Both the position numbers and the translations under genes were made by a program. Shown in pieces: positions 112 to 63,100 of a stretch of 64,000 bases of DNA. Under the pieces are notes generated by a model, which had not been told where the DNA came from, searched no databases, and worked only from the letters and a program-made list of their open reading frames with translations. The stretch's first letter is position 1; every line of letters begins with the position of its first letter. Source of the stretch: Candidatus Peregrinibacteria bacterium (lineage in GTDB: Bacteria; Patescibacteriota; Gracilibacteria; Peribacterales; Peribacteraceae). The stretch covers positions 1-64,000 of the forward strand of contig JAUSFD010000015.1 of the NCBI GenBank assembly GCA_030649955.1, in the 5' to 3' direction.

Positions 112-188
112 TGGTGGGTCAGGTGGGATTTGAACCCACGGCCAATTGCTTAAGAGGCAACTGCTCTACCGGGCTGAGCTACTGACCC
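112..188 (-). tRNA. tRNA-Lys (anticodon CTT)
   Basis: A full cloverleaf can be read. The acceptor GGGTCAG (188-182) pairs with CTGACCC (122-116). The anticodon loop CTCTTAA contains CTT, and the T-arm contains GGTTCAAAT. Discriminator A and an encoded CCA end at 112. The upstream flank (189-240) is repeated imperfectly at 364-420 next to a decayed second copy. Confidence 0.95.
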
Positions 189-254
189 GAAACCGTGGAG
201 GACTGTAGCAAATGCACTACGTGTTCTCAATCATTCGCCTTCATGGAAACCGGA

Positions 255-363
255 TTGTGGATGGGAACCCACGGCCAACCCCGCAGCGCTTGCGCGTGCG
301 GGACTGCTCTATCGGGCTGCCTGCCCGGCGAAGCTCGCAAGCGTAGTCGGGAGCTACTGACCC
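255..363 (-). pseudogene. decayed, interrupted tRNA-Lys copy
   Basis: The 5' end GGGTCAGTAGCTC (363-351) is identical to the intact tRNA-Lys. About 31 bases of a hairpin element follow (320-350), then the D-arm remainder resumes near 318. The anticodon arm is replaced by a GC-rich hairpin (279-302). The T-arm (about 262-275) is degenerate and the 3' acceptor strand no longer pairs with GGGTCAG. It arose by tandem duplication of the tRNA plus its upstream flank, and cannot be a working tRNA unless the inserts are removed. Confidence 0.75.
320..350. repeat. TTCG/TACG hairpin element inside the tRNA-Lys copy
   Basis: The 31-base palindrome has outer CCGG/TCGG arms and an inner part where CGAAG faces CGTAG, so four central positions do not pair. 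The same signature occurs at 15107-15139 and 38801-38867. The insertion point is exactly after tRNA bases TAGCTC. Confidence 0.6.
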
Positions 364-451
364 GAAACCGGGGGGAACTGTAGCAAATGCGCTTCGTGTT
401 CTCAATCGTTGGTTCTACAAAACTTACGTGCTCCCGACGCTCAGTACGGAC

Positions 452-3448: not shown

Positions 3449-3526
3449 ACAAGAGGATGGGGAAGGGGATAGGAGGAATTCCTCGTCAATACATGTCAGA
3501 CGATCCAGAGAGAGACCTCTTACGGT

Positions 3527-3630
3527 AAGGCAGGAAGGGCAGGAACGGCAGAAAGGGCAACATGCGTGAGAACGAGAAATACTCATCCCCTTCCTGCCCT
3601 CGCTGCCTTTCCTGCCTTTACTGCCCTTCC
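3527..3630. repeat. inverted periodic element A1 (period 9)
   Basis: The left arm repeats a nine-base unit like AAGGCAGGA four times with variations; the right arm (about 3590-3630) is the inverted complement with the same period. It lies between two minus-strand genes. Copies A2, A3 and A4 are at 8273, 16783 and 52058. Confidence 0.8.
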
Positions 3631-3661
3631 TCAGTTCTCCTCCAATTCATCATCTTTCTTA

Positions 3662-7029: not shown

Positions 7030-8274
7030 ATGTCCGACACATTCCGTTCTCTCTTCTCCGGCTCCCGCGGTTCCGGAGCGTCACCCCAGCGTGACGATGC
7101 CACCGCATCCTCTCCCTCCTCCCGCGAGGTGCGTCCGGATATGCCGCCCGGTGCGGTGATCCGCGTGCTCGGCGTAGGCGGCGGCGGTGGTAACGCCGTC
7201 GAGCGGATGATCGAGGGGAAGGTCATGGGCGTCGAGTTCATCGTCGTGAATACCGACGTGCAGGCGCTCTATCACAACGCCGCACCCAAGAAGATCACGC
7301 TCGGCCGCGGCACAACCCGCGGGCTGGGTGCCGGTGCGAATCCCGATATCGGGAAGAAGGCTGCGGAGGAATCCCTCGAGGAGATCAAGGCATCCCTCGA
7401 AGGGACGGATATGCTCTTCATTACCGCGGGTCTGGGTGGAGGTACCGGCAGCGGCGCCAGCGGCATCATCGCGGAGTGCGCGCGCTCCATGGGCATCCTC
7501 ACCGTCGCCGTCGTCACGAAGCCCTTCAGCTTCGAGGGCTTCAAGCGCCGCAAACAGGCGGAGGAGGCACTGGAGATGCTCAAGGGGAAAGTCGATACGC
7601 TCATCATTATCCCAAACGACAAGATCCTCTCCCTTATCGACAAGACGACCCCCCTCACGGAGGCCTTCCAGGTGGTCGACGAGGTCCTCAAGCACGCGAT
7701 CGAAGGAATTTCGAACCTCATCACAGAGCACGGGCTCGTCAACGTCGACTTCGCCGACGTGAAGGCGATCATGCAGGACGCCGGCACGGCGCTCATGGGC
7801 ATCGGCTACGGGACGGGGGACAGTAGGGCATCCGAGGCCGCACGTGCAGCTATTGATAGCCCACTCCTCGAGACCAGCATCAACGGCGCCCAGGGTATCC
7901 TCTTCAACATCACGGGTGGCAATGATCTCTCGATGTTCGAGGTGGATGAAGCCGCACGGATCATCACGGAGGCCGCTGCACCGGAGGCGAACATCATCTT
8001 CGGCGCAGTGATCAACGAGGCGTACACCGGCCAGGTGAAGTGCACGGTCATCGCGACGGGCTTCGACGAGAAGGACCTGCCCACCGTTCAGGCAATGGGC
8101 ACGCCCGCGCAGCGCTTGCTCAAGGGCGCCCTCGCACGCCCAGGAGCCACTTCCGAGAAGACGGATTCCCGCACCCAATTCAGCCAGGATGGCTCCATCA
8201 AGTCCACGTCCATCGATTTGGATGAGCAGGAGCTGGAGGTGCCCGCCTTCATGAGGAAGCCGCTCAGTAAATAA
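7030..8274 (+). CDS. ftsZ: cell division GTPase FtsZ
   Basis: The 414-residue tubulin-like GTPase forms the division ring. It shows the GTP loop GLGGGTGSGASG (about residues 134-145), an early glycine-rich motif VLGVGGGGGNAVERM, the T7 synergy loop NVDFADVKAIM, and a short conserved tail VPAFMRKPLSK that should bind FtsA. The leader before the ATG is pyrimidine-rich (TCTTTCCC) with no Shine-Dalgarno site. It is the second gene of the ftsAZ pair; element A2 begins at its stop codon. Confidence 0.97.
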   Translation: MSDTFRSLFSGSRGSGASPQRDDATASSPSSREVRPDMPPGAVIRVLGVGGGGGNAVERMIEGKVMGVEFIVVNTDVQALYHNAAPKKITLGRGTTRGLGAGANPDIGKKAAEESLEEIKASLEGTDMLFITAGLGGGTGSGASGIIAECARSMGILTVAVVTKPFSFEGFKRRKQAEEALEMLKGKVDTLIIIPNDKILSLIDKTTPLTEAFQVVDEVLKHAIEGISNLITEHGLVNVDFADVKAIMQDAGTALMGIGYGTGDSRASEAARAAIDSPLLETSINGAQGILFNITGGNDLSMFEVDEAARIITEAAAPEANIIFGAVINEAYTGQVKCTVIATGFDEKDLPTVQAMGTPAQRLLKGALARPGATSEKTDSRTQFSQDGSIKSTSIDLDEQELEVPAFMRKPLSK

Positions 8275-8360
8275 GGCAGGAATGGCAGGAAAGGCAGGTA
8301 GGGCAGGAAAGAGAAAGAACCTTCCTGCCTTTTCTGCCCTCACTGCCCTTTCTGCCTTTA
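8273..8360. repeat. inverted periodic element A2 (period 9)
   Basis: The left arm units are AAGGCAGGA, ATGGCAGGA, AAGGCAGGT, AGGGCAGGA; the right arm is inverted with the same period. It fills the gap between the convergent ends of ftsZ and dut and overlaps both gene ends. Confidence 0.85.
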
Positions 8361-8795
8361 TCCGTGGGTCCCCGTACTCCCAAACCCCCCTCGCGATTCT
8401 TTCCCGTGCGAGGTTACCTCCTCCCATTCCGCCCGGTCGGTACGGACGAAGAGGCCCTGGGCGATGCGCTCGCCGCGCTCCACGGTGACAGGCGCATCCG
8501 AGGTATTCTGCACCTGCACGAAGATCTCGTCCGTTGTTCCGTGGTAATCCTGGTCGATGACGCCCAGCGAGTGCGGGCACACGAGGGATTTGCGACGGGG
8601 GAGCGAACTCCGTGGGAGGATGAGGAGGGCGTAGCCCTCCGGCACCGCGACAATCACATTCCCCGGCACGAGGCCGATCGCGTGCGGTGGGATGACCGTG
8701 GTTTCGCGCGTGAGCAAATCGAAGCCCACTGCTCCCGCAGTGGCGTACTGCGGAAGAGGGAGAGTAGCGTCGACGCGTTGAATGCGCACCTGCAT
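8358..8795 (-). CDS. dut: dUTP diphosphatase
   Basis: The 145-residue trimeric dUTPase hydrolyses dUTP to dUMP, keeping uracil out of DNA and feeding dTMP synthesis. All five motifs are present in order: AGAVGFDL, PRSSLP, GVIDQDYHG, RGERIAQGLF and the C-terminal arm GGFGSTGTHG. Length is typical. It converges with ftsZ and lies 53 bases downstream of the large gene that starts at 13765. Confidence 0.95.
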   Translation of the reverse strand: MQVRIQRVDATLPLPQYATAGAVGFDLLTRETTVIPPHAIGLVPGNVIVAVPEGYALLILPRSSLPRRKSLVCPHSLGVIDQDYHGTTDEIFVQVQNTSDAPVTVERGERIAQGLFVRTDRAEWEEVTSHGKESRGGFGSTGTHG

Positions 8796-15093: not shown

Positions 15094-15106
15094 GGGCAAT
15101 TAGCTC
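15094..15106 (+). repeat. 5' fragment of tRNA-Val
   Basis: Thirteen bases GGGCAATTAGCTC are identical to the first 13 bases of the intact tRNA-Val 112 bases downstream. The match stops exactly after AGCTC, where a hairpin element begins. The same break point is seen in the tRNA-Lys copy. Confidence 0.7.
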
Positions 15107-15170
15107 CCTCCTTCGCCCTGTGCGCGGGGCTACGGAGGGCAGGCAGCTGGCGCCAGCTTCGCTTGCCATC
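15107..15170. repeat. TTCG/TACG hairpin element after the tRNA-Val fragment
   Basis: CCTCC pairs with GGAGG around an inner GCCC/GGGGC stem in which TTCG faces TACG (15107-15139). A perfect 14-base palindrome AGCTGGCGCCAGCT follows at 15145-15158. It is related to the elements at 320-350 and 38801-38867. Confidence 0.6.
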
Positions 15171-15205: not shown

Positions 15206-15282
15206 GGGCAATTAGCTCAGCTGGCTAGAGCGCCACATTGACATTGTGGAGGTCACTGGTTCAAGTCCAGTATTGCCCACCA
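15206..15282 (+). tRNA. tRNA-Val (anticodon GAC)
   Basis: The acceptor GGGCAAT (15206-15212) pairs with ATTGCCC (15272-15278). The anticodon stem CCACA/TGTGG encloses loop TTGACAT, anticodon GAC. T-arm GGTTCAAGTCC, discriminator A and encoded CCA to 15282. Confidence 0.95.
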
Positions 15283-16126: not shown

Positions 16127-16783
16127 GTGAAGATGGGGCCTATGTGGTCAGCTGTGCTCGACTTCGTCTTCCCGCGCTCTCCCCTGAAAGGGACAGAGGG
16201 GAAGCTCACTACGCTGGAGGAACTCACGCGCGAGCGCACGGATCCCGTTCTCCTCGAGGAGAGAGAACTGCGGGCACTCGGTCTCACCTCGGTTGATCGC
16301 ATCGTCGCGGCGGCGGAATACGGGAAGTCACCTCTCCTCAAGCAGACTATCCATCGATTCAAGTACATGAAGGTGCGATCGCTCCACATGCCACTCGCGG
16401 AGGTGTTGCTCACAGCGCTCCCACTCCTCGTACTAAACGATGACACCGTGCTCTGCGCGGTGCCGCTCCATTGGACGCGGAAGTTCTCTCGCGGATTCAA
16501 TCAGTCGGCGTTGCTCGCGCGCGTGGTAGGGGAGCGGGCGAGTATCCCTGTAGCGGATCTCCTGAAGCGCACGCGCCCGACGGGTCAGCAGATGAAGCGT
16601 GGGAGGGTTGCCCGTTTCTCGGCTATGACAAGCGCTTTTCGATGCACTGTATCTCCGGTCCCCGCGCACGTCATCCTCGTAGATGACCTCTCGACGACGG
16701 GAGCGACGCTCGATGCATGCGCGAAGGCGCTGAAGAGTGCTGGAGTGGAGAGGGTGGAGGGGTTGGTGGTGGCACATGGATGA
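16127..16783 (+). CDS. ComF-like phosphoribosyltransferase
   Basis: The 218-residue protein has the family's HRFKYMKVRSLHMPLAE region, RGFNQSALLARVV, and the PRPP-binding motif VILVDDLSTTGATLDACAKAL near the end. ComF proteins are linked to DNA uptake and replication restart in other bacteria; the reaction is not known. The usual N-terminal zinc-finger cysteines are absent. AAGGAG at 16111-16116 lies ten bases before the GTG at 16127, one of the few good Shine-Dalgarno sites here; ATG 16133 is an alternative. Confidence 0.8.
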   Translation: MKMGPMWSAVLDFVFPRSPLKGTEGKLTTLEELTRERTDPVLLEERELRALGLTSVDRIVAAAEYGKSPLLKQTIHRFKYMKVRSLHMPLAEVLLTALPLLVLNDDTVLCAVPLHWTRKFSRGFNQSALLARVVGERASIPVADLLKRTRPTGQQMKRGRVARFSAMTSAFRCTVSPVPAHVILVDDLSTTGATLDACAKALKSAGVERVEGLVVAHG

Positions 16784-16866
16784 AAGGCAGTCAGGGCAGC
16801 GAGGGCAGGGAAGGCAGCAGATGATCAGCGGTTGCCTTCATTGCCCTTCCTGCCTTTGCTGCCCTC
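16783..16866. repeat. inverted periodic element A3 (period 9)
   Basis: Left-arm units AAAGGCAGT, CAGGGCAGC, GAGGGCAGG, GAAGGCAGC; the right arm is inverted with the same spacing. It overlaps the comF stop codon region and precedes rseP. Confidence 0.8.
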
Positions 16867-17005
16867 TCTCCATCCGAGTCCATCGCATTCGGAATACCTC
16901 ACTGGCGATGTGCATTGCTACTGGTCACTCCTTCTTGTATCACTGCAACACGAGATACTGTGGAAAACTTTTCTGTTTTCCACGGGGACGTTAGGATCGC
17001 AGTCC

Positions 17006-28445: not shown

Positions 28446-28682
28446 TCAAATGAGCCTCTTATTTCGAAATGCGAACCCGGAGGAACTTTTCAGATATTTT
28501 TCGAAGGCAAACGCTTTCTTACTATCGTTAAATGCCGCATAGAACAGGAGTTCCTTGGGGCGAACTCGAGAAGTGGTTGGAACCGAATGGTGCTTATGAT
28601 GAATAAGTCGCTTTGAAAGATCCCGAGTACACCCAACGTAATGCTGTTCATTCTCAAGTTCGAGTATATAGACGTACTGCAT
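28446..28682 (-). CDS. single-domain GIY-YIG protein
   Basis: The 78-residue protein is of the YhbQ/UPF0213 type. It has VYILELENEQHYVGCT as the GIY-YIG motif, DLSKRLIHHKHHS as the basic second helix, ELLFYAAFNDSKKAFAFEKYLK with the conserved glutamate, and a short SGFAFRNKRLI end. Such proteins are predicted nucleases with unclear targets. ATG 28682 is chosen; the 20-residue upstream extension is unlike the family. Base composition is AT-richer than the surroundings. It lies 203 bases downstream of tRNA-Pro on the same strand. Confidence 0.8.
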   Translation of the reverse strand: MQYVYILELENEQHYVGCTRDLSKRLIHHKHHSVPTTSRVRPKELLFYAAFNDSKKAFAFEKYLKSSSGFAFRNKRLI

Positions 28683-28885
28683 AGCAGATGAATATATCAC
28701 TATTGTCTCGACACAATAGTGACATGCAACAAACAGCCCCACTTCGCTCTGCGAGTCGAAAAGAGTGCTCGGAGTCTGGTTACGTGTTTCTCCGTCTCAA
28801 GCAGAGCTTCGCGGGGCATACTTCGCATGTTCATTTACAAAGAAGTGTGGCTAGCCACGCGAAGCTCGCCGCAGCGAGCGAAGTG

Positions 28886-28962
28886 TGGTCGGGACGACAG
28901 GACTTGAACCTGCGACCTCTTGCACCCCATGCAAGCGCTCTAGCCAACTGAGCTACGTCCCG
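28886..28962 (-). tRNA. tRNA-Pro (anticodon GGG)
   Basis: The acceptor CGGGACG (28962-28956) pairs with CGTCCCG (28896-28890). The anticodon stem CTTGC/GCAAG holds loop ATGGGGT, anticodon GGG. T-arm GGTTCAAGTCC, discriminator A and encoded CCA ending at 28886. Confidence 0.94.
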
Positions 28963-33121: not shown

Positions 33122-33151
33122 GGGTGACGGATGTTTACCCTCGATGTACAT

Positions 33152-33224
33152 CGTTTATTGGTTTACTCGTTTATTCGAAATGCAATAATGCGAATAAACG
33201 AATCAACGAGTAAACGAATAAACG
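33152..33224. repeat. inverted periodic element D1 (period 8)
   Basis: Left-arm units CGTTTATT, GGTTTACT, CGTTTATT; right-arm units AATAAACG, AATCAACG, AGTAAACG, AATAAACG. It separates the convergent ends of infB and the 33227 gene. D2 is at 53506. Confidence 0.85.
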
Positions 33225-33226
33225 GG

Positions 33227-34474
33227 TCATGTGGCCATGCCCTGCGCCGGCCCCCCCATCTGCGGAGGATTCCGCTGATCGAAGAACTGCGCCTGCGCGA
33301 TGATGGGCCGGGGGCTGCCCTGGGCAACGAGGTACGAGGCAACTTCGCGTGACTCCGTCGTGTCCTGGGTTCTGAGTGTCTGAACGAAATCCGCGAACTT
33401 CTCCCCGTAGACGTTCCCCGCCACACCGCCCTTGATCATCGCCTCGAGCGTGTTGATTACCTGAGGGGATGCACTGCTCCCCGCGAGCTCCTCCGCGAGT
33501 GCGCGCGGATCCTCCACCGGTTTCTTGTTCGCAATCTGTTTGAGTGCCTTCGTGAGGGCCGGGGGGAGGCTGGGTCGCATGATCGTCTCCGCCACCTGCT
33601 TCCACCCTTCTCCTTGGATGCCATTGTCGGAGAGGAACTGCCAGAAGGACGGGTTCATGACGGGGGCGATCTTCTTGGCGACCTGCTGGCTCTTCGAGTC
33701 CAGAATCACACCGGGGTAGCCCAGGAGGTACGCCCCCAGACCCCATGCGACAGCAGCTTTCGGCGGTCTGCCGGAGAGGACGCTCAGTGCCCCGAAGAGG
33801 AGAGCCACCCCGCCTGCGACAACTGCTCCGACTGTTCGCGTATGGGCACCGAAGTCCTGCAAGCGCGTACGCGTGCCCGGAGGTGAGCCGCGCTCCGGTG
33901 GAAGGTAGTTCATGGCCCACGTCACGGGGTCACACAGGTTCGCGTACTCCTCAAGAGTCGCTCGGAGTTCAACGAGCACTTTCTGAGCTCCCGGGTCGTT
34001 CGCTGCGGACATCCGCCATCCTTCAATTTGTTGGCTGATCGTGTACCACACCAGTCGCGTGTCGATGCACCACCCTTTCGTGCCGGTCACCGGCTTCAAA
34101 AAGGGAGCGTTCAGAAGGGTGAGCCCTGATGGGCCTCCGTGACGCATTCCCTTGATGATCGTGAGCGCCTCCTGCTTGAATCCCACGGAGCTCTGCATGG
34201 AGTCGAGAGCCTCCACAATGTTGTCGAGCTTAGAAGTAACCATCGAGAGAGCATGGTTGATGCGAAGAGGGGACTCGTCGAAGTAGCATTTGTGCAGATC
34301 GCGAACTTCCTTCCGCTCGAGCTCGCTCACCTGCTCCGCACGCATGCCCGCTAAGAGCTGCAGGCTCTCGTAGAGTCTCCGCACATTCACACGTTGCCTT
34401 TGACTTTCTCCCGTCTCCTGTGGGCGCTCAGGCTCTTGCGGTAATTGCCTTTGCTGGATGTTGTCGATGGTCAT
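33227..34474 (-). CDS. hypothetical two-TM protein downstream of the VirB6-like gene
   Basis: The 415-residue protein has a long helical N-terminal part, two hydrophobic segments near residues 215-255 (VGAVVAGGVALLFGALSVL and AVAWGLGAYLLGYPGVIL) and a soluble C-terminus ending in a Pro/Gly/Met-rich tail. I do not recognise a family. It begins 15 bases after the stop of the VirB6-like gene, so the two form an operon and probably act in the same membrane machine. Element D1 ends at its stop codon. Confidence 0.6.
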   Translation of the reverse strand: MTIDNIQQRQLPQEPERPQETGESQRQRVNVRRLYESLQLLAGMRAEQVSELERKEVRDLHKCYFDESPLRINHALSMVTSKLDNIVEALDSMQSSVGFKQEALTIIKGMRHGGPSGLTLLNAPFLKPVTGTKGWCIDTRLVWYTISQQIEGWRMSAANDPGAQKVLVELRATLEEYANLCDPVTWAMNYLPPERGSPPGTRTRLQDFGAHTRTVGAVVAGGVALLFGALSVLSGRPPKAAVAWGLGAYLLGYPGVILDSKSQQVAKKIAPVMNPSFWQFLSDNGIQGEGWKQVAETIMRPSLPPALTKALKQIANKKPVEDPRALAEELAGSSASPQVINTLEAMIKGGVAGNVYGEKFADFVQTLRTQDTTESREVASYLVAQGSPRPIIAQAQFFDQRNPPQMGGPAQGMAT

Positions 34475-52005: not shown

Positions 52006-52057
52006 CCCTGCAAGTGTACGAGTGGGAATGAGGGTTGTACAGGAAGAAGACTGATAA

Positions 52058-52145
52058 GAAGGGCAGGAAGGGCAGTGAGGGCAGGAACGGCAGGAAGCTC
52101 CATTGCAGTTTGCCTTACCTGCCCCTCCTGCCTTCTCTGCCTTTT
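52058..52145. repeat. inverted periodic element A4 (period 9)
   Basis: Left-arm units AAGGGCAGG, AAGGGCAGT, GAGGGCAGG, AACGGCAGG; inverted right arm. It fills the divergent gap between lepB and the PH-like gene. Confidence 0.85.
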
Positions 52146-52193
52146 CTCCCCCCTCTCGATACATCACCCACCTCCGCTGTACACTGGTGTCAT

Positions 52194-53489: not shown

Positions 53490-53505
53490 TTCTCGCACCA
53501 GAGAA

Positions 53506-53586
53506 GTTTATTCGTTGATTGGTTTACTCGTGTATTCGAGTGCTCATCCATTCGAATAAACGAATCAACGAGTAAACGAATAAACG
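53506..53586. repeat. inverted periodic element D2 (period 8)
   Basis: Left-arm units AGTTTATT, CGTTGATT, GGTTTACT, CGTGTATT; right-arm units AATAAACG, AATCAACG, AGTAAACG, AATAAACG. Its right arm is identical to that of D1 at 33152. It lies between pth and the large DUF11 gene. Confidence 0.9.
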
Positions 53587-53638
53587 TACAACGCAAAGAG
53601 GCGAGCTCGCGCACGCCTCTTCACGGTGATTAGTCAGC

Positions 53639-56600
53639 TTACAGGAAGTACCTGTTGCCGAGCACTCCTCCGCCGACGATGCCGGCCGTGAAGATCACGG
53701 TCCAGACGATCGCAGCCACCGCGCCGCCGCCGCTCTCACTGGATCCACCACTCCACGGTGTCAGGAAGGAGCGGGCCTCGCGCAGCGAGGAGGCGAAGTC
53801 GCGGCCTCCCGTTTGCGGGAGCTGATCGATGATGCGGAGCTCGTGCGTATCGGAGTCGCTGTCGTCGCGTGTCTCCACGCGGACGGTGTTGCGGACCGTG
53901 TCGCCGTGGCTCAGGGACGTGCTCACGCGGGCGCGGTACTGGAGCGTCCTCGACTGGCGTGCACCCAGCGTGCCAATGTCCCAGCGGACGCTGTCGTCGG
54001 AGATGTCGCCGTCATCGCGGGCGTCGATGATCTCGAGATCGTCCTCGTTGAAGGTGTCCTCCACCTCGACGTCCTCTAGAGCGGTGTCGCCGGAGTTGCG
54101 AATGGTGATCGTGTACAGCACCTCGTCGCCAGGCTGCGCTTCTGTGCGTGCGCTCTTCTCGACGGAGATCCTCCCTTCCTCATCATCTTCCTCCTCTACG
54201 ACGTCCGTGCGATCCGTCGCTGTCCTGCTGGCAACCTGTGCCACGTTCGTCAGGATGTCGCCGTCGTCTGCATCCTCATCCACCTCGACTTCGACCGTGA
54301 GGTTGATGGTCTGATTTGCGGGGACCGTGAGACCGCTCCAGCTTATCGTGCGGCCGTTCCTGTTGCCGTTCGTTCCGATGTTGATGACCTCTACCTGATC
54401 CGGGAGCGTATCCGTGACCACGACGTTGCGTGCTTCCGTCGATGTCGTGTTGCGGACGGAGATCGTGTAGATCAAGCGCTCGCCGGGCTCCACCTCGGTG
54501 CGGCCGTCCGTTTTGCTGATCTCCAGGTCAGTCGTGCTCAGGCTCGTCTGCCGGTTCTTGAAGGTGATGCCGACGCAGGTGCCCTGTGTGACTTGGACGA
54601 CGCCGTTGCTGGGTGTGACGGAGAGCTGCGACCAGCCCGAGGGGATAGTCTCCGTGACCGTGTGTGTGCCGACGGACACGTTGTCGAAGCGTGCGCGGCC
54701 CTGGTAATCGTTCACGACGGTGCGCTGGCCGTCCAGAGAGAAGGTGAACTGCGTGACCGAGGAGATGACGGCCCCGTTCACGTCGAACGTCTCCTTGAGT
54801 ATCTCGATACATCCGTTTTGATCGGACTGGCAGGTAATCGTCGTCGTGACCGTCTGGCTCGTGTTATTCGAGCTGTTCGTCTCCGATGTCGCTGTGGCGA
54901 CGCTCGCCTGGTTCGTCACCGTTGCCTGCGAGCAGGTCGTCTGCGTCGGGACGGAGAAGACGAGGTTCAGGGTCTTCGACTGGCCACTGGTGAGGGAACC
55001 GATGTTGCACGTGACGTTATTGCCGTTCAGGTAACACGAGGGGTCTGAGGAGCTGGAGTTGTACGTGAGACCTGCGGGGATGGGGTCTGTGATGACCACG
55101 TTCTGCGCCGTAGCCGGGCCGCTGCTGTTCACCGTGAGCGTGTACGTGAGCGTCGATCCGCGCGTCACCGTGCTCGCACCCGTCTTCGTGATCGTCACGT
55201 CCGTCGTGTTGGACGTTTGGCAGAGGATCGTCGTTGATACCGTCTGGCTCGTGTTGTTGGACGTGCTCGACTCCGTTGTCGACGTGCTGACGGTGGCCGT
55301 GTTCTGCACTGTCGTCTGGCTGCAGTTATTCTGCGTTGGGACGTTGAAGACAAGGAGGAGGGTCTTCACCTGATCATCGGCGAGGGTGCCCACGTTGCAG
55401 GTGATGTTGCTCCCGTTCTGGTAGCAGGAGGCATCGGATGCGCCTGCGTTGTACGTGAGTCCGCTCGGAATCGCATCGGTGACGATGACGTTCGTCGCGC
55501 TCGCCGGGCCTTCGTTCTTCACCGCGAGGGTGTACGTGAGGGTCCCGCCTCGGGTCACGGTGCTCGCTCCTGTCTTCGTGATCGTCACATCGGCAACAGT
55601 CGGGGTCGGGCAGTTGATGCTCGTTGTCACCGTCTGGCTCGTGTTGTTCCCGGCGTTCGTCTCGCCCGTCTGGCTCGTGACAGTCGCGTGGTTGTTCACC
55701 GCGACGGATGCGCAGTTGTCCTGGTTCGGGACGTTGAAGACGAGGGAGAGGGTCTTCACCTGTCCGTTCGTCATCGTGCCAAGGTTGCAGACCACGTTGT
55801 TCCCCTGAAGCGTGCAGCTCGCATCAGATTGTGCGGAGTTGTACGTGAGGCCGCCACCGGGGATTGCGTCATTCACTGACACGTTCTGTGCAGATGCAGG
55901 ACCATTATTGGTCACCGTGAGTGTGTAGGTGATCGTGCCGCCGCGCGTGATTGCGCTGGGACCGGTCTTCGTGATCGCGAGGTCCGTCGTCGTTGGTGTG
56001 GGGCAGGTGATGGTCGTCGTGACCGTCTGGCTCGTGTTGTTGCCCTGTGACGGATCCGATGTGCTCGTCGTCACCGTTGCCGTGTTCTGCACGGTCGTCT
56101 GGGAGCAGTTCGTCTGCGCTGCCGTGTTGAAGGCGATGGTGAGGGACTTCGACTGACCGCTCGTGAGCGCTCCGATGTTGCATGTGATGTTGCTGCCGTT
56201 TAAGTAGCAGGAGGCATCCGAGGAGCCGGAGTTGTACGTGAGGCCGCTGGGGATAGCGTCTGTGACGACGACGTTCTGTGCAGTCGCCGGGCCGCTGTTC
56301 GTGACGTTCACGGTGTAGGAGATCGTCCCCCCGCGTACGACGGATGCAGGACCCGCCTTCGTGACGGAGATATCCGCAGTCGTGGGTGTGGGGCAGTGCA
56401 CCGTCGTGGAGACCGTACTCACGTTGTTGTTGAGGTTTGCATCGGGCTGCGGTCCACCGAACGCGATTGTTGCCTTGTTCTGCACAGTTGTCTGCGTGCA
56501 CTGGGCAATCGTGGGGACCTCGAAGACGACAGTGGATACGGAGACCTGGCCAGGCTGCATCGTCCCGACTTCACAAACGACAATGCCATTGATCAGTACG

Positions 56601-58033
56601 CATCCTGCTGTGGATTCCCCAGGGAGGAACGTGAATCCTGCTGGGAATTCATCATGGAAGTACACTTGAGGATGCGAGGTGTTTCCCGTGTTCCTCAGGG
56701 TGATAGTGTAGGTCACCTTTCCGCCTCTCGTCACACTCGCTCCACCAGACTTCACGATGGTGAGATCGGGGATGGGACACTGCACGCTCGTCTCCACAGT
56801 CGTGGAGGTGTTGTTGTTCGGGTTCGGATCGCTGACCTCGCCCTGGGGGAGCATGACGATCGCCGTGTTGCGGAAGACGGTTGGCGAGCAGCTGTCCACC
56901 TGAGGGACATTGAAGACGATTACGAAGGACTTCGACTGCCCGGAGGTGAGGTTGAAGTTCATGCACTTCACCTTGTCGCCAACCTGGATGCAGTCGGGGC
57001 TCGATTGTGCGGAGTTGAAGGTGAGGCCAGTGGGAATCGTGTCCGCGATGACGACGTTATTCGCCGTTGCCGGGCCTGCATTGGTTGCTTTCACCGTGTA
57101 CGTGATCGTCCCGCCGCGCGTTGCCGTGCTGGGGCCGGTCTTCGTGACGGAGAGATCAGCGGTGGTCGGGGTGGGACAGTTGATCTGCGTCACCACGTTC
57201 ACGCTCTGGTTGTTCCCCTGCACGTTGTCCGTCGAGGTCGTGGTGACAGACGCGCGGTTCTGGACCGTCGTCGCGGAGCAGGAATTCCCCTGTGTGGGAA
57301 CCGTGAACACGAGGACGAAGTTCCTCGTCTGGTTCGCTGGCATGGAGCCGAAGTTGCAGACGATGTTGCTTCCCTGTTGTGTACAGGCTGCATCCGAAGC
57401 TCCGGAGTTGTACGTGAGGCCAGAGGGGATGGGGTCCGTGACGACGACGTTCGCTGCCGTTCCCGGCCCTTTGTTATGCACACTCAGCTGGTAGGTGATC
57501 GTACCGGGGCGTGTCACATTCCCTGGCCCGGTCTTCAGGATCTCCAGATCGGCATTCACGACGCAGGTCACGACTGTCCGGAAAGAGTTCGTCCACGTGA
57601 GCTGCTGGCCGTTTGCCCCCTGGATATCCACGAGCCCGATGATCTCCGATCCGCAGGATGCAGTGGTCTTCACCTTGAACCTGAGCTTCACTACCTCAGT
57701 CTGCCCAGGACCGAGAGCGAAGAAGGAGCAGTAGGAGATGCCCGCGATCGAGCAGTTGTACTTATCGCTTCCGAGGAAGGTCGTCTGTGAGAAGAGCCCT
57801 GCACTTCCGCCTGTGTGGAAGGCGAGGCGGATCTGCGTCACCGGGGATGTTGCATTGTTCGTGACGGAGACGGTGTACTCGATCTCTTCACCCGGAGCTG
57901 CTGTGGCGGGGCCACTCAATGTCGCCGTGATTGCGGCGTGTGCGCTGGCTGTAGGGAGCACAATGTAAGCGCACGCAATGGCGAAGAGCGACGTGCAGAA
58001 CCGGAGAGTATGGGAGCGCAGGACACGACGCAT
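53639..58033 (-). CDS. large DUF11-repeat surface protein with LPQTGG tail
   Basis: The 1464-residue protein has a signal peptide (RFCTSLFAIACAYIVLPTASAHA), then about ten DUF11-type beta-sandwich repeats of 125 residues (signature KTGPSxxTRGGTITYTL), a prealbumin-like domain (CIEILKETFDVNGAVISS to VGITFKNRQ), two more divergent DUF11 units and a sorting-type end: LPQTGG, a Ser/Gly linker, hydrophobic AAIVWTVIFTAGIVGGGVL and basic GNRYFL. It is therefore probably exported and anchored, perhaps as a fibre or adhesin. The repeats are similar at DNA level. Confidence 0.9.
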   Translation of the reverse strand: MRRVLRSHTLRFCTSLFAIACAYIVLPTASAHAAITATLSGPATAAPGEEIEYTVSVTNNATSPVTQIRLAFHTGGSAGLFSQTTFLGSDKYNCSIAGISYCSFFALGPGQTEVVKLRFKVKTTASCGSEIIGLVDIQGANGQQLTWTNSFRTVVTCVVNADLEILKTGPGNVTRPGTITYQLSVHNKGPGTAANVVVTDPIPSGLTYNSGASDAACTQQGSNIVCNFGSMPANQTRNFVLVFTVPTQGNSCSATTVQNRASVTTTSTDNVQGNNQSVNVVTQINCPTPTTADLSVTKTGPSTATRGGTITYTVKATNAGPATANNVVIADTIPTGLTFNSAQSSPDCIQVGDKVKCMNFNLTSGQSKSFVIVFNVPQVDSCSPTVFRNTAIVMLPQGEVSDPNPNNNTSTTVETSVQCPIPDLTIVKSGGASVTRGGKVTYTITLRNTGNTSHPQVYFHDEFPAGFTFLPGESTAGCVLINGIVVCEVGTMQPGQVSVSTVVFEVPTIAQCTQTTVQNKATIAFGGPQPDANLNNNVSTVSTTVHCPTPTTADISVTKAGPASVVRGGTISYTVNVTNSGPATAQNVVVTDAIPSGLTYNSGSSDASCYLNGSNITCNIGALTSGQSKSLTIAFNTAAQTNCSQTTVQNTATVTTSTSDPSQGNNTSQTVTTTITCPTPTTTDLAITKTGPSAITRGGTITYTLTVTNNGPASAQNVSVNDAIPGGGLTYNSAQSDASCTLQGNNVVCNLGTMTNGQVKTLSLVFNVPNQDNCASVAVNNHATVTSQTGETNAGNNTSQTVTTSINCPTPTVADVTITKTGASTVTRGGTLTYTLAVKNEGPASATNVIVTDAIPSGLTYNAGASDASCYQNGSNITCNVGTLADDQVKTLLLVFNVPTQNNCSQTTVQNTATVSTSTTESSTSNNTSQTVSTTILCQTSNTTDVTITKTGASTVTRGSTLTYTLTVNSSGPATAQNVVITDPIPAGLTYNSSSSDPSCYLNGNNVTCNIGSLTSGQSKTLNLVFSVPTQTTCSQATVTNQASVATATSETNSSNNTSQTVTTTITCQSDQNGCIEILKETFDVNGAVISSVTQFTFSLDGQRTVVNDYQGRARFDNVSVGTHTVTETIPSGWSQLSVTPSNGVVQVTQGTCVGITFKNRQTSLSTTDLEISKTDGRTEVEPGERLIYTISVRNTTSTEARNVVVTDTLPDQVEVINIGTNGNRNGRTISWSGLTVPANQTINLTVEVEVDEDADDGDILTNVAQVASRTATDRTDVVEEEDDEEGRISVEKSARTEAQPGDEVLYTITIRNSGDTALEDVEVEDTFNEDDLEIIDARDDGDISDDSVRWDIGTLGARQSRTLQYRARVSTSLSHGDTVRNTVRVETRDDSDSDTHELRIIDQLPQTGGRDFASSLREARSFLTPWSGGSSESGGGAVAAIVWTVIFTAGIVGGGVLGNRYFL

Positions 58034-58100
58034 ACGGAAGGGGGGAGATGGACAAAAGGGATGTATTATCCACTAAAAATAGCCTTTGTCAATAATTCAG

Positions 58101-58128
58101 TGGACAAGGCTCAGAAAGCGGCTACAAT
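58101..58128 (+). promoter_or_regulatory. promoter of the His-rich membrane protein gene
   Basis: TGGACA (58101-58106), a 16-base spacer and TACAAT (58123-58128), ending eight bases before the TTG at 58137. This fixes a start well inside the open frame that begins at 58086. Confidence 0.55.
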
Positions 58129-58136
58129 GCCCTCCT

Positions 58137-58883
58137 TTGCACATCCTTCCCTACGTCATCCTTGGCCTGCTGGTGCCATCTGCAGCCTACGCAGATAGCC
58201 TCCGTATCCCGTCGTACGTCTTCACGGACTGGCGGTACTGGGTCTACCTGGCCCTCTACGTCCTCCTCACGGCGAAAGTCGTTCGGTGGGCGCTCCGGGG
58301 GAGGATCATTCGGGACAGGCTCGCAGCGGTACCCCTCGAGGACGTGAGCTGGGGGGCGGTGATCATCTTCGGGAACGCCATCGTCTACCAGATCTTCCAC
58401 CACTACGAGCACCTCACCCAGATCTACCAGTTCTGGTACTTGGGTCTCCCTCCGAAGATTTCGAAGGGCGTGCTCTTCTTCTTCGACGTCGAGTGGAACC
58501 ACTTCATCTTCGATGCCGGGTACTTCCTCATGCTCTTCGCCGCATCCGCCCTGCTCCTGCGGAAGTGGTGGCAGGCGGGTCATCACGTTGATCGCATCGG
58601 CGGCACCTTCATCGCGGGCACGCTCCTCGTCCAGGGCTGGCACGCCATCGAGCACACCTTCCGCATCACGAAGCACGTGACGATCGGCTGCGAGCCGTGC
58701 CCCGGCATTGCGGATACGCTCCTGGGCATCCGCCTGATCCCCCTGCACTTCTGGTTCAATGTCTTCGCGCTCACGTTACCGCTCCTCGTCTTCGTCTGGT
58801 TCTCCATGCACCGGAAGATCTGGTACGCGATCCGTGGTCCTGCGAACCCGCCACAGGCTCCGATGAGTATGCGATTGTCGTGA
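58137..58883 (+). CDS. histidine-rich polytopic membrane protein
   Basis: The 248-residue protein has a signal-like first segment and about five further membrane segments. Histidines cluster on predicted helices: IFHHYEHLTQIYQF, WNHFIFDAGYF, QAGHHVD and WHAIEHTFRI, plus a loop with CEPCPG. The spacing could bind metal or heme, but I do not recognise a family. It is divergent from the DUF11 gene and starts leaderless with TTG. Confidence 0.6.
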   Translation: MHILPYVILGLLVPSAAYADSLRIPSYVFTDWRYWVYLALYVLLTAKVVRWALRGRIIRDRLAAVPLEDVSWGAVIIFGNAIVYQIFHHYEHLTQIYQFWYLGLPPKISKGVLFFFDVEWNHFIFDAGYFLMLFAASALLLRKWWQAGHHVDRIGGTFIAGTLLVQGWHAIEHTFRITKHVTIGCEPCPGIADTLLGIRLIPLHFWFNVFALTLPLLVFVWFSMHRKIWYAIRGPANPPQAPMSMRLS

Positions 58884-58920
58884 GGTCTCTGATGATTACA
58901 GGTGCACTGGGAAGTTATGG

Positions 58921-58950
58921 GTTTCTAGTTTCTGGTTTTTGGTTTACGCC
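58921..58950. repeat. periodic arm J-left (period 7)
   Basis: Units GTTTCTA, GTTTCTG, GTTTTTG, GTTTACG. The inverted partner is 540 bases away at 59490-59522, with a gene between them, so this element differs from the compact ones. Confidence 0.6.
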
Positions 58951-59007
58951 TGCATATTCCTCAGCCAATAAAACCAGAAGCGGAACTCGCTATGGGACGC
59001 ATCCTCC

Positions 59008-59403
59008 TCAGTTGTAACTTGGGGTTACTCCTGGCAGGAAGTCCTTCCCACTCATTTTCTTCGATGCCGCTCCCTGAGCCTTTACAATATCCTCAAGTTC
59101 TTTAACGAGAGATTTGAGCTGGTATTCGCCCAATGCAAGCGCTTTGATGTCTGGTTTGTGCGGACCCTTCTCTGCCCGTGCTCTCTGTTCTCCAAGCTCG
59201 CGTAACTGTGTCTTGAGCATCTCCAATTGTGTTCTGGCGAAGCGTGGATTGTTCTTTGCCTCCTTGAGCACAACTTGCCGCATCTCGTCGAATTTCACGG
59301 CAATGTTGTTGACGCGTTTGGTGGCTTCTTCGCGGACGTCGCGCTTGTTGCTTGGCAGCTTTTCAAGCTTGTCCTCAGGCGAAGGTGGCGGACTCTCAGG
59401 CAT
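59008..59403 (-). CDS. coiled-coil hypothetical protein between J arms
   Basis: A 131-residue soluble protein with a Pro/Glu-rich start and a long charged helix (VNNIAVKFDEMRQVVLKEAKN and QLEMLKTQLRELGEQRARAEKG) that should form a coiled coil. No family recognised. Its AT content is higher than nearby genes. The inverted J arms flank the gene on both sides. Confidence 0.55.
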   Translation of the reverse strand: MPESPPPSPEDKLEKLPSNKRDVREEATKRVNNIAVKFDEMRQVVLKEAKNNPRFARTQLEMLKTQLRELGEQRARAEKGPHKPDIKALALGEYQLKSLVKELEDIVKAQGAASKKMSGKDFLPGVTPSYN

Positions 59404-59489
59404 GGCAACATGATTGCAGTACGACGACGTGAAAACAAGACTGCCGTCTTATGCCTTACGCTCGATTCTGTGTACACCTGAAAAATCCC

Positions 59490-59522
59490 CAACCAAAAAC
59501 CAGTAACCAAAAACCAGCAACT
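59490..59522. repeat. periodic arm J-right (period 7)
   Basis: Units CCAACCA, AAAACCA, GTAACCA, AAAACCA, GCAACTA, the inverted partner of J-left. Confidence 0.6.
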
Positions 59523-59534
59523 ACCGTTGGATGC

Positions 59535-60047
59535 TCAGCTCGCAGCATCCATCGGCACGAGCGTCGCGGTGTTCCCCTCGAGGGTGGCGATGAACGATGC
59601 GGCGATGGGTTCCTCCTCGTGCGTGTACATGGCGTACGACGGGCTCTGGAGGGCGACGGTGATCACGTGCTCTCCATCGGTCAAGTTCGGGAGGTGGAAC
59701 CACGGGGTGTACATCCTCGCCACCTGGCGGCCGTCCACGTAGAGGTACCCGTACCCCTCCATGGGGCTTGGAGCGGCCTCTGCATCGTTGAGGAAGCGGA
59801 AGCCTGGGGTATCAACAACGAGGTTCCAGCCCTGCGTGGGGTCGCGGTAGAGGCGCATCCCGATGGTCGGTTCCGTCTGGTCTGCTGTGAGTTCCTGTTG
59901 CTGCTGGAAGCCAAGGCCAAGCCGCAGCGTATCGCGGACCTCCGCACGGGTGTACGGCCCACGCCCGTTGAACAGGAAGAATGCGCCGACTGCCAGGATG
60001 GCGGTGAAGGCGATGTCGTAGGCGATGGGTCTGGAGCTGTCCTGCAT
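59535..60047 (-). CDS. membrane-anchored extracytoplasmic protein, 170 aa
   Basis: One N-terminal membrane segment (IAFTAILAVGAFFLF, about residues 12-26) is followed by an extracytoplasmic domain with a beta-rich core: YGYLYVDGRQVARMYTPWFHLPNLTDGEHVITVAL, a small beta-sandwich pattern seen in accessory surface proteins. No named family. It lies between the two DUF11 giants and may serve the same surface layer. Confidence 0.55.
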   Translation of the reverse strand: MQDSSRPIAYDIAFTAILAVGAFFLFNGRGPYTRAEVRDTLRLGLGFQQQQELTADQTEPTIGMRLYRDPTQGWNLVVDTPGFRFLNDAEAAPSPMEGYGYLYVDGRQVARMYTPWFHLPNLTDGEHVITVALQSPSYAMYTHEEEPIAASFIATLEGNTATLVPMDAAS

Positions 60048-60129
60048 ACGTCTATCTTTTAAACTAAATACAGCAATATGTCAATGTCCGTTTTCCCCGC
60101 AGGAGAATGAGCAAATGGACACAGCTCTG

Positions 60130-63100
60130 TCAGCGATCCCTCAGTACTCGGTAGATGGCGACTGCCACTTCTCCGCGGGTCAGGTACTCGTGGGGCTCCA
60201 GCTCGTCGTCATCGAGATCCGGGAAGAGGTCGTACTCTTCTACAGCACCGGCGTAGCGGTCGAACCAGTCTTCGCTGTCGACGTCGTCGTAGTCATGATC
60301 GAGGTCCTCTTCCAGGTCGAACGTCCGCACGATCATCTTCAGGAACTCCGCACGGGTCACCCTGCGCTCGGGGCGGAAGGAGCCATCGGGGTAGCCGGAG
60401 ATGATGCCGCGGCGCTCCGCGTCCACGACGTACTTCACGTACCACTCGCCGTCCTCGACGTCCCAGAACCGATCGTTGTTGCTGCGCTTCTTCACAGAGC
60501 CGTAGCGTGCGAGGAGGAGGAACTTCGCGGCTTCCGCACGGTTCACGTCGTCGTCGGGGCGGAAGTCCCCGTCGTTGCCCTCGATGATGTCGCGTGCAGC
60601 CAGGAAGTTCGCAGCGCGTCCCTCGAGCGTCGAGGAATCGACGTCGTCGAACGCATCGGAGTACTCATCTCCGTCACTGGAGTAGGCACTCGAGTAGCTG
60701 AAGCTACTGGAGGAGGAAGAGAACGAGGAGAAGTACCCGTCCAGGTTCTGCTTGTTCTTGAAGGTCACGGTGACGCAGGTTCCGGAGAGGACGGTGATCG
60801 TGCCACCCACGGGGGTCACGGAGACCTGGTTCCACGTCGGAGGCACGTACTCGGTCACGGTGTGCAGACCCACGGGGACCTCGAGGAACGTCGCGCGTCC
60901 TAGCGTGTTGTTCCACGCCTGCCTCGTCCCATCGAGCGTGAACTGGAACTGCGGGACGGGGAGCAGGGGGTAGCCACGCGTGTCGAACGTTTCCTTCACC
61001 ACCTCGATGCAACCGAGGCTGATGGAGCTCACGGAGCTCGAGGAACTGACGCTGCTCGATGAGCTCGAGGAGCTCACTGAGGAAGAGCTTGAAGAGGAGC
61101 TCACTGGTGGGCAAGTGACGACGGTGGAGACCGTGCTCTGGTTATTCGCGCTCACCGGATCGACGGTCGTCGTTACGACGATGGCGGTGTTCGGCACGGT
61201 GACCGGGATGCAGGCATCCTGTTGTGGGATCAAGAATGCGAGTGTGAGCGTGTACACCTGACCGCTGCCGAGCGTTCCCAGCGTGCAGCGGATGACGCTG
61301 CCATCCTTGATGCAGGAGTCGTCGGAGAGAGCGGCGTTGAACGTGAAGCCTCCGGGGATGGGATCAGTGACGATGACGTTCTTCGCCGATCCTGGCCCGT
61401 TATTGATGATGGTGAGGGTGTAGACGATCGTCGATCCGCGTAGGATCGAGGAGACGCCACTCTTCACGATGGCGACATCGGCGTTCTCCGGTGGCGGGCA
61501 GAGGATTGCCGTCTCCACGAGGGAGCTGACATTGTTGCTCTGGATGGGATCCTGCGTCGATGACGAAATCGTCGCCCGGTTCGCCGCCACTGCGGGGATG
61601 CACGGATCCTGCTTCGGTGTTGCGAAGGTGAGGATCAGAGTCCTCGTCTGGCCGCTCTGGAGTGTCCCGAGCGCACATACGATGTTCCCGCCCTGCTTCG
61701 TGCAGGAGTTGTCGGAGAGGTTCCCGAGGTACGTAAGCCCCGTGGGGATCGGATCGGTGACGACGACGTTCGTCGCTGCACCCGGCCCGTTGTTCACAAT
61801 GGAGAGCGTGTAGGTGACGGTATTCCCGCGGGTCACCGTCGCCGGGCCCTCCTTCACGATGGAGACGTCCGTTGTCACGGGAGGGGGGCAGAGGAGCTGT
61901 GTCGTCACCGTGCTCGTGTTATTGGAGGCACTGCTCTCTGGTGTCGTTGTGCTGACCGTCGCCCTGTTCTGCACCGATCCCGTTACGCACGGATCGGGGA
62001 GAGTTGTCGTGAAGGTCAGGACGAGGGTCTCCGACGATCCGCTCGGCATCGTGCCGAGGGTGCAGGAGACGGATCCGCCCTGGAGTGTGCAGCGGTTGTC
62101 CGAGGCAGCAGAATTGAAGGTGAGACCTGCCGGGACGGGATCGGTGACGACGACGTTCGCCGCAGCGGCTGGCCCTGTACTCGTCACGGTGAGGGTGTAC
62201 ACGACCGGGTTCCCGCGCGTGACACTCGAAGGGCCAGTCTTCACGACGCTCACGTCACCCTTGTCCGGCTGAGGGCAGAGGACCTGCGTTGTGACTTCAC
62301 TCCCGTTGTTCGTATCGTTCGTCTCGTCTGTGGACGTAGCCACCGTCGCACGATTGATCACCGTGCGCGGGAGGCAGAGTGTCTGAATCGGGATGTCCAC
62401 TCGCACGGTGAACGTCTTCGTCTCACCTGCTGCGAGCGTCCCGAGTTCGCAGGCGAGGACATCGTTCTGGACTGTGCAGTGCGCACCATCATTCGAGGAG
62501 ACTCCCAAGAAGGTTGTCCCGGCCGGGAGGGGATCCGTGACCTCTACCCCTTCGGCTTGGCCAGGCCCTGCATTCGTCACGGCGATGGTGTAGGAGAGGA
62601 CGCCACCGCGGGAGATGCTCACGGGTCCGGTCTTCACGACACTCACATCCGCCTTCAGGCGGACCTTGCGGTTCTTGAAGATTACGACGGCGCAGTCCTT
62701 GCCGGTCTCCACGGAGAGTTTTCCGTTCGATGGCGTCACGACAACCTGCTCCCACCCGAGGAGAGGGGACTCCGTCACCCGGTGGTCTCCTGCGGAGACG
62801 TTCTCGAAGCGCGCGTGACCGCTCAGCTTCATCTCCACCGTTTTGTTCCCATCGAGGGTGAACGTGAAGGGCGGCACGTCGTCCGGGAGGGGCACGCCAT
62901 TCACATCAAATATCTCCTTCACCACTTCGACGCATCCCAGCTGCGGCGGGCACAGCACGGTGACGTTGTGCGCACTCGTGTTGTTGCCTTCGTTGAGATC
63001 GGGGACTGGGCTCGAGATTGTGGCTTTGTTCACCAGTGTCTCCGGTACGCACTGCTGTCCCTGGTTCCGGGGAACCGTGAAGGAGAGCGTGATCGTGACC

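Follow-up and report, generated by a model that had tools for sequence, protein, structure and literature searches.

Hairpin-split partial copies of tRNA genes upstream of intact tRNA genes in Peribacteria

Insertions are normally rare in essential single-copy genes. Rickettsia palindromic elements are bacterial palindromes that are inserted in genes; they measure about 100-150 bp and lie mostly in-frame in ORFs. The REP/BIME sequences with RAYT are short dispersed imperfect intergenic palindromes with covarying stems and nesting, and the hairpins described in this work resemble them in these traits. The mitochondrial repetitive or double hairpin elements and GC clusters are short mobile-looking hairpins that also occur in structural RNA genes (PMC2800124). 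Partial tRNA copies are a usual trace of phage or ICE integration (PMC9897764). In phage T6, SegB amplifies a tRNA-Tyr segment, and the authors propose microhomology between the 5' region of the tRNA and the 3' region of segB (PMC13096335).

The locus described here belongs to a tRNA-Lys gene near the start of the window, which is the whole stretch of 64,000 nucleotides that was analysed. It is read as a hairpin-loaded partial tRNA duplicate that lies between a promoter and the working tRNA gene. Non-coding short hairpins occupy one nucleotide position in many tRNA genes of the lineage, but a working copy is never lost. This calls for an insertion mechanism that regenerates its target, or else for a class of tRNA leaders; either would be new, and it would operate in a large uncultured lineage with small genomes. 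No report of hairpin-split tRNA copies before working tRNAs was found in open-licence papers, and the genome paper on Peribacteria gives 46 tRNA genes without describing such copies. The ftsZ relatives place the source of the window in Ca. Peribacteria (Patescibacteria).

The tRNA-Lys and tRNA-Val loci of the window

The features of both loci are shown in Table 1. The whole element at 257-410 (minus strand) is a duplicate of the promoter and tRNA-Lys(CTT). The order on that strand is promoter, copy with two hairpins, spacer, second promoter, intact tRNA-Lys(CTT), and GIY-YIG ORF, which begins 2 nt behind the intact tRNA. The preliminary description had claimed a tRNA-Lys duplicate that keeps the first 13 bases of the tRNA and is split by a hairpin after AGCTC, and this duplicate is present on the minus strand. 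It had also claimed more tRNA after the first hairpin, a GC-rich hairpin replacing the anticodon arm, and a duplicated upstream flank. The first is seen as nt 14-28, the second lies exactly at the place of the anticodon stem-loop, and the third is the 90% identity between 176-235 and 351-410, where both flank copies hold a TTGAGA-17-TACAGT promoter in the consensus scan. The claimed TTCG/TACG palindrome of 31 bases is a hairpin at that place with a length of 32 nt instead. The 3' acceptor strand and CCA are absent from the copy, and the loss of the acceptor strand is a feature that the description did not contain. The folded copy alone is not more stable than shuffled sequence.

A second case is found at tRNA-Val(GAC), where the same junction is used. 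The preliminary description had made its reading depend on the junction being found in other tRNA fragments, and the reading stands because AGCTC-hairpin-CAG recurs in the window (15102) and across the family. A tRNA intron (self-splicing group I or other) was rejected, as the Rfam scan of the window returned only four tRNAs and the intact tRNAs are uninterrupted. No intrinsic terminator was found in a scan of 1-800, and hairpin A is followed by CAGG/CAAG and not by T-runs.

Table 1. Features of the tRNA-Lys(CTT) and tRNA-Val(GAC) loci, in positions of the window.
Feature	Position	Strand	Basis or remark
Start of GIY-YIG nuclease ORF, cut by contig start	1..109	-	PF01541 match (C4:5-97); translation
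Intact tRNA-Lys(CTT), presumably working	112..188	-	ARAGORN and Rfam RF00005, 74.6 bits
Promoter copy 2 (TTGAGA-17-TACAGT), for intact tRNA-Lys	202..230	-	Consensus scan; flank duplicated
T-arm remnant of tRNA-Lys copy (TTGGCCGTGGGTTCCCATCC...), acceptor 3' strand gone	257..278	-	Alignment
GC hairpin, type B, at anticodon stem-loop place of tRNA-Lys copy	279..303	-	
nt 14-28 of tRNA-Lys copy (AGCCCGATAGAGCAG)	304..318	-	
Hairpin A, 32 nt, between tRNA nt 13 and 14	319..350	-	Boundary ambiguous by 1 nt; covariance model match 320-351, 40.4 bits, copy is a training-set member
nt 1-13 of tRNA-Lys copy (GGGTCAGTAGCTC)	351..363	-	
Duplicated upstream flank including promoter copy 1 (hexamers 405-377)	364..410	-	
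Copy of tRNA-Val(GAC) nt 1-13 (GGGCAATTAGCTC)	15094..15106	+	
Hairpin A, same junction, tRNA-Val copy	15106..15143	+	55.3 bits; in training set
tRNA-Val D-loop resuming (CAGCTGG)	15144..15150	+	
Intact tRNA-Val(GAC)	15206..15282	+	

The window also contains other repeats. Paired arrays of a 9-nt unit (AAGGCAGG-like, then its complement) are located at 3524-3631, 8270-8362, 16781-16869, and 52048-52156, where they form long imperfect inverted repeats between genes. Two similar palindromic arrays of 8-nt units (AATAAACG/AATCAACG) beside their complement (TTTATTCG) are located at 33151-33232 and 53504-53594. Tandem coding repeats of about 390 bp with 60-80% identity span 54828-63255.

Prevalence of the copies and families of hairpins

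All 46 tRNA genes of the genome were gathered with their flanks, and an upstream copy was recorded where the gene's own 5' 13-mer was found with at least 12 of 13 matches at most 350 nt upstream. Such copies precede 17 of the 46 tRNA genes, compared with 0.05 on average and never more than 1 when the 5' ends were permuted, and therefore the tRNA-Lys copy is not due to chance. The number becomes about 23 of 46 when diverged copies (10-11 matches, then a hairpin) are included. Nearly all of these copies have a hairpin in the D-arm. This extends the preliminary description, as a third to half of the genome's tRNAs are affected and several unrelated hairpins are found at the same place.

The complete, single-contig genome G028 has three upstream copies at the cut-off of at least 12/13 and about 10 by eye, and genome G051 from another family has none. 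A tRNA-blind sample was obtained from loci fetched for encoding FtsZ (1.19 Mb). Upstream copies are present at 17 of the 58 Peribacteria tRNA contexts in this sample and at none of the 11 from other Peregrinibacteria. The window begins at a contig end within the GIY-YIG repeat, as might be expected of an assembly artefact or contamination; against this, the same architecture is found in many independently assembled Peribacteria genomes including G028, and we assign the artefact a negligible probability.

The pattern AGCT[C/T]-hairpin-CAGGCAG has about 35 genuine matches among 36 genomes of the family and no genuine-looking match in 23 genomes from other families of the class. The AGCT of these matches is nearly always nt 9-12 of a tRNA 5' fragment, which lies 60-230 nt before an intact tRNA with identical 5' sequence. 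The D-arm junction (nt 12/13-14) is used in tRNAs Lys, Val, Ile, Met, Trp, Thr, Arg, Asn, Asp, Pro, Gly, Gln, Leu, and Cys and is shared over dozens of genera, and the set of leader-bearing tRNAs varies from genus to genus. The copy upstream of tRNA-Tyr (L173, G000:C25) has two hairpins, the first of which is in reverse orientation.

Integrative elements that use tRNA attachment sites could leave partial tRNA copies behind as remnants, in line with the known traces of such integration. However, the copies found here are 5' parts that lie 32-214 nt from the intact gene at 17-23 of the 46 tRNAs, and no integrase or cargo is present between copy and gene. We consider this origin very improbable.

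The alignment of hairpin A was built from 31 junction hairpins that share a two-part stem with an internal TTC/TAC loop. In this alignment, 93.9% of pair cells are paired, seven pairs exhibit double changes, and the covariation score is 0.371 compared with 0.151 for shuffled and at most 0.082 for slid alignments. The covariance model (R1) has matches in 38 of 40 family genomes, with 0-85 per genome at E<=0.01. It has 22 matches in the tRNA-blind sample and none of them is in non-Peribacteria loci; 12 lie inside a tRNA 5' fragment, a fraction that is perhaps biased upward as the model was trained on tRNA-linked copies, and one lies directly behind a tRNA 3' end. Hairpin A is also found away from tRNAs. 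It is a dispersed, lineage-specific repeat that is strongly biased to the tRNA D-arm junction.

About a third of the leaders have hairpins other than type A at or near the D-arm junction, and therefore a single mobile family is insufficient as an explanation. The type GCCTAGCC...GTAATAAA is found in Lys, Met, and Trp leaders and the type CCCTTCGAC...GCTCAGGG in Leu leaders, and several further hairpins in the same tRNA region are unique. The GC hairpin B is dispersed (an exact copy of the window's hairpin B is located at G000:C15:24534) and stands for anticodon arms in L028 and L052-L055. Hairpins in both the D-loop and the anticodon loop, as in the tRNA-Lys copy of the window, are present in L336, L353, and L088 from other genera.

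Variants of hairpin A (CCACACTTCGCTCGC...GCGTGGC) begin at the CCA of intact tRNAs Pro, Lys, and Ile, at 28854-28888 (minus strand, Pro) in the window, at L362:6140-6177, and at L138:755-792 (Ile). The tRNA 3' end is a second hot spot for these variants. Away from tRNAs, hairpin B lies within another palindrome at G000:C30:71322 (L109), between CACCATGAGCGA and GTCGAATGGTG, as an insertion at the hairpin apex.

Boundaries of the copies and the predicted leaders

Copy and gene were compared in 53 leaders without flank duplication, a set preselected for a match of at least 12/13. The identity is about 1.0 at nt 1-12 and 0.75 at nt 13. It is close to background from nt 14 onward and, on the upstream side, from -3, and there is a slight excess at -1 and -2. 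Clear duplication of the flank is seen in 8 of 61 leaders, including the tRNA-Lys of the window. Simple tandem duplication followed by neutral decay was rejected for most loci, as identity is about 100% at nt 1-12 but only at background level in the flanks. Without such preselection, the copies listed for this genome still match at about 12/13 on average. Simple tandem duplication fits the tRNA-Lys of the window, where it includes flank and promoter. Some copies continue past the hairpin with the D-loop of the same tRNA, and most of the linkers do not repeat the old flank. A plain target-site duplication of nt 1-13 is weakened as an explanation, as the D-loop of the same tRNA often resumes past the hairpin.

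Two comparisons bear on insertion. In genome G020, a hairpin of the tRNA-Lys(TTT) leader has the loop CCCTACGGG, and this loop is occupied by a complete hairpin A in the related tRNA-Lys(CTT) leader. The tRNA-Lys(CTT) loci L378 and L372, both near ftsZ, share a promoter stretch that adjoins the tRNA in L378 and the copy in L372, so that in L372 only, the promoter is separated from the gene by the copy, the hairpin, and a linker of 42 nt. The nested hairpin A and this empty/filled site indicate insertion. No uninterrupted full-length tandem tRNA copy is found among 271 contexts and the working tRNA survives directly downstream; for both reasons insertion and duplication appear to be coupled.

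Target-specific insertion of short hairpin elements into the loops of tRNA genes, together with a coupled local duplication by which the working gene is spared, is the explanation to which we give about an even chance. Palindromic DNA elements of about 30-45 nt from a Peribacteria-specific family would move as DNA and enter the loop-encoding parts of tRNA genes. Most would do so where D-stem and D-loop meet (nt 12/13-14), and some in the anticodon loop or behind CCA. Each insertion would go together with a local duplication; the front part of the gene, now interrupted, would stay by the old promoter, and an intact tRNA would persist or be re-established downstream, in most cases at a distance of 75-215 nt. 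In the case of the window's tRNA-Lys, the duplication would have taken the promoter too, a second GC hairpin would have taken the place of the anticodon arm, and the 3' strand of the acceptor stem would have been lost. The lack of a simple target-site duplication argues against insertion, and so do the failure to find a mobilising enzyme and the hairpins of other types in about a third of the leaders.

The preliminary description had held that the tRNA-Lys locus is more than decay and had proposed target-specific insertion, or else recombination by way of tRNA-derived elements. In substance, this interpretation is supported. The target specificity is reflected in the use of one D-arm position in 14 tRNA types, in the 12 of 22 tRNA-blind matches, and in the nested and empty/filled comparisons.

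A TANNNT -10 element is located 12-23 nt before the copy in 61% of leaders, compared with 63% before leaderless tRNAs and 41% before the working tRNA at leader-bearing loci. A promoter lies before the copy, and thus the copies are predicted pre-tRNA leaders; the copy is probably transcribed as part of the leader. The leader length is mostly 75-145 nt. Selection for such a leader is a serious rival to insertion. The copy would then be a functional RNA element: as a transcribed 5' leader with hairpins, it would imitate the 5' half of the tRNA and control how the downstream tRNA folds, how it is processed or how much of it is present, for example through competition for its 3' acceptor strand. 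The position between promoter and tRNA and the leader length are consistent with this, as are the minimum-energy folds of several leaders, in which the copy is paired with the 3' acceptor strand. However, the few mismatches viewed by eye often disrupt this pairing, and a dedicated partner of the copy inside its own leader is not supported (mean rank 0.52 against the 5' ends of other tRNAs).

The tRNA-Val(GAC) leaders near ftsZ align in four genera. The copy, a D-arm hairpin that varies, and a small CGCCAC..TGGCGC hairpin are common to all four, whereas the flank and the linker tail are saturated, and a set of tRNA-Lys leaders behaves similarly. Such conservation amid saturated surroundings favours selection, which counts against the insertion account, or conversion from the neighbouring gene. 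On the other side, the leader-bearing tRNAs differ between genera and the same hairpins are also present away from tRNAs, and the RNA element is on balance doubtful. A tRNA-mimic leader that combines both origins is likewise only a tentative proposal: a hairpin-stabilised copy of the 5' half would head a third to half of tRNA transcripts in some Peribacteria genomes, made by hairpins homing on D-arms and kept for tRNA folding, processing or supply.

Candidate enzymes and comparison with known systems

No enzyme that mobilises the hairpins was found. RAYT was rejected as a general cause: of the 36 family genomes, 13 have no match to Y1_Tnp, among them G028 with its leaders, and hairpin A lies near only 3 of 30 Y1 loci. 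GTAG/GTGG is absent from the stem foot of the aligned hairpin A copies, whose outer stem starts with Y-C-C, and the GTA/GAA motif of the alignment lies within the stem, on the opposite strand.

At some loci, a GIY-YIG nuclease encoded beside a tRNA gene is a candidate for the enzyme. Small GIY-YIG ORFs have a same-strand tRNA at most 250 nt upstream at 11 of 28 sampled loci, and in L052-L055 a tRNA is followed by a GIY-YIG ORF and then by the 3' part of a tRNA, with hairpin B as its anticodon arm. In L054, this 3' part lies between two GIY-YIG ORFs, an arrangement reminiscent of the SegB-driven segmental amplification in phage T6 (PMC13096335). A free-standing SegB-like nuclease could thus have cut tRNA DNA, with recombination duplicating the segment and the spare copies decaying and collecting hairpins. 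The ORF directly behind the window's tRNA-Lys fits this, and SegB-like amplification may explain that locus. However, for most of this genome's leader-bearing tRNAs no GIY-YIG start is seen in the examined 3' flank, and the precise hairpin insertion and the sharp +1 boundary are left unexplained; GIY-YIG-driven segmental duplication is in our view improbable. Another small GIY-YIG ORF behind a tRNA is located at 28476-28679 (minus strand) of the window.

The arrangement suggests mobile hairpins homing on tRNA genes, as in the insertion account that we prefer, or a new kind of tRNA leader, and the D-arm junction provides an exact handle for finding it elsewhere. Compared with tRNA-targeting integrative elements (attL/attR), which also place partial tRNA copies by the intact tRNA, the fragments here are 5' and not 3', no integrase is present, and the spacing is about 0.1 kb. 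Compared with REP/BIME and RAYT, the target is tRNA loops, Y1_Tnp is undetected in 13 of 36 genomes, and the stem foot lacks GTAG. The Peribacteria hairpins are shorter than Rickettsia palindromic elements (30-45 nt) and are tRNA-directed. The SegB and tRNA-adjacent GIY-YIG homing nucleases share with the tRNA-Lys of the window and with L052-L055 the nuclease gene by a tRNA and the duplication of a tRNA segment (PMC13096335), whereas the present case is on a bacterial chromosome, most leaders have no adjacent nuclease start, and the hairpins are an addition. The Peribacteria hairpins are inserted in genes and spacers as the mitochondrial elements are, a likeness in behaviour for which they are not classed among those elements; they differ in being bacterial and in lying at D-arm position 13/14 of a spare copy before the working gene.
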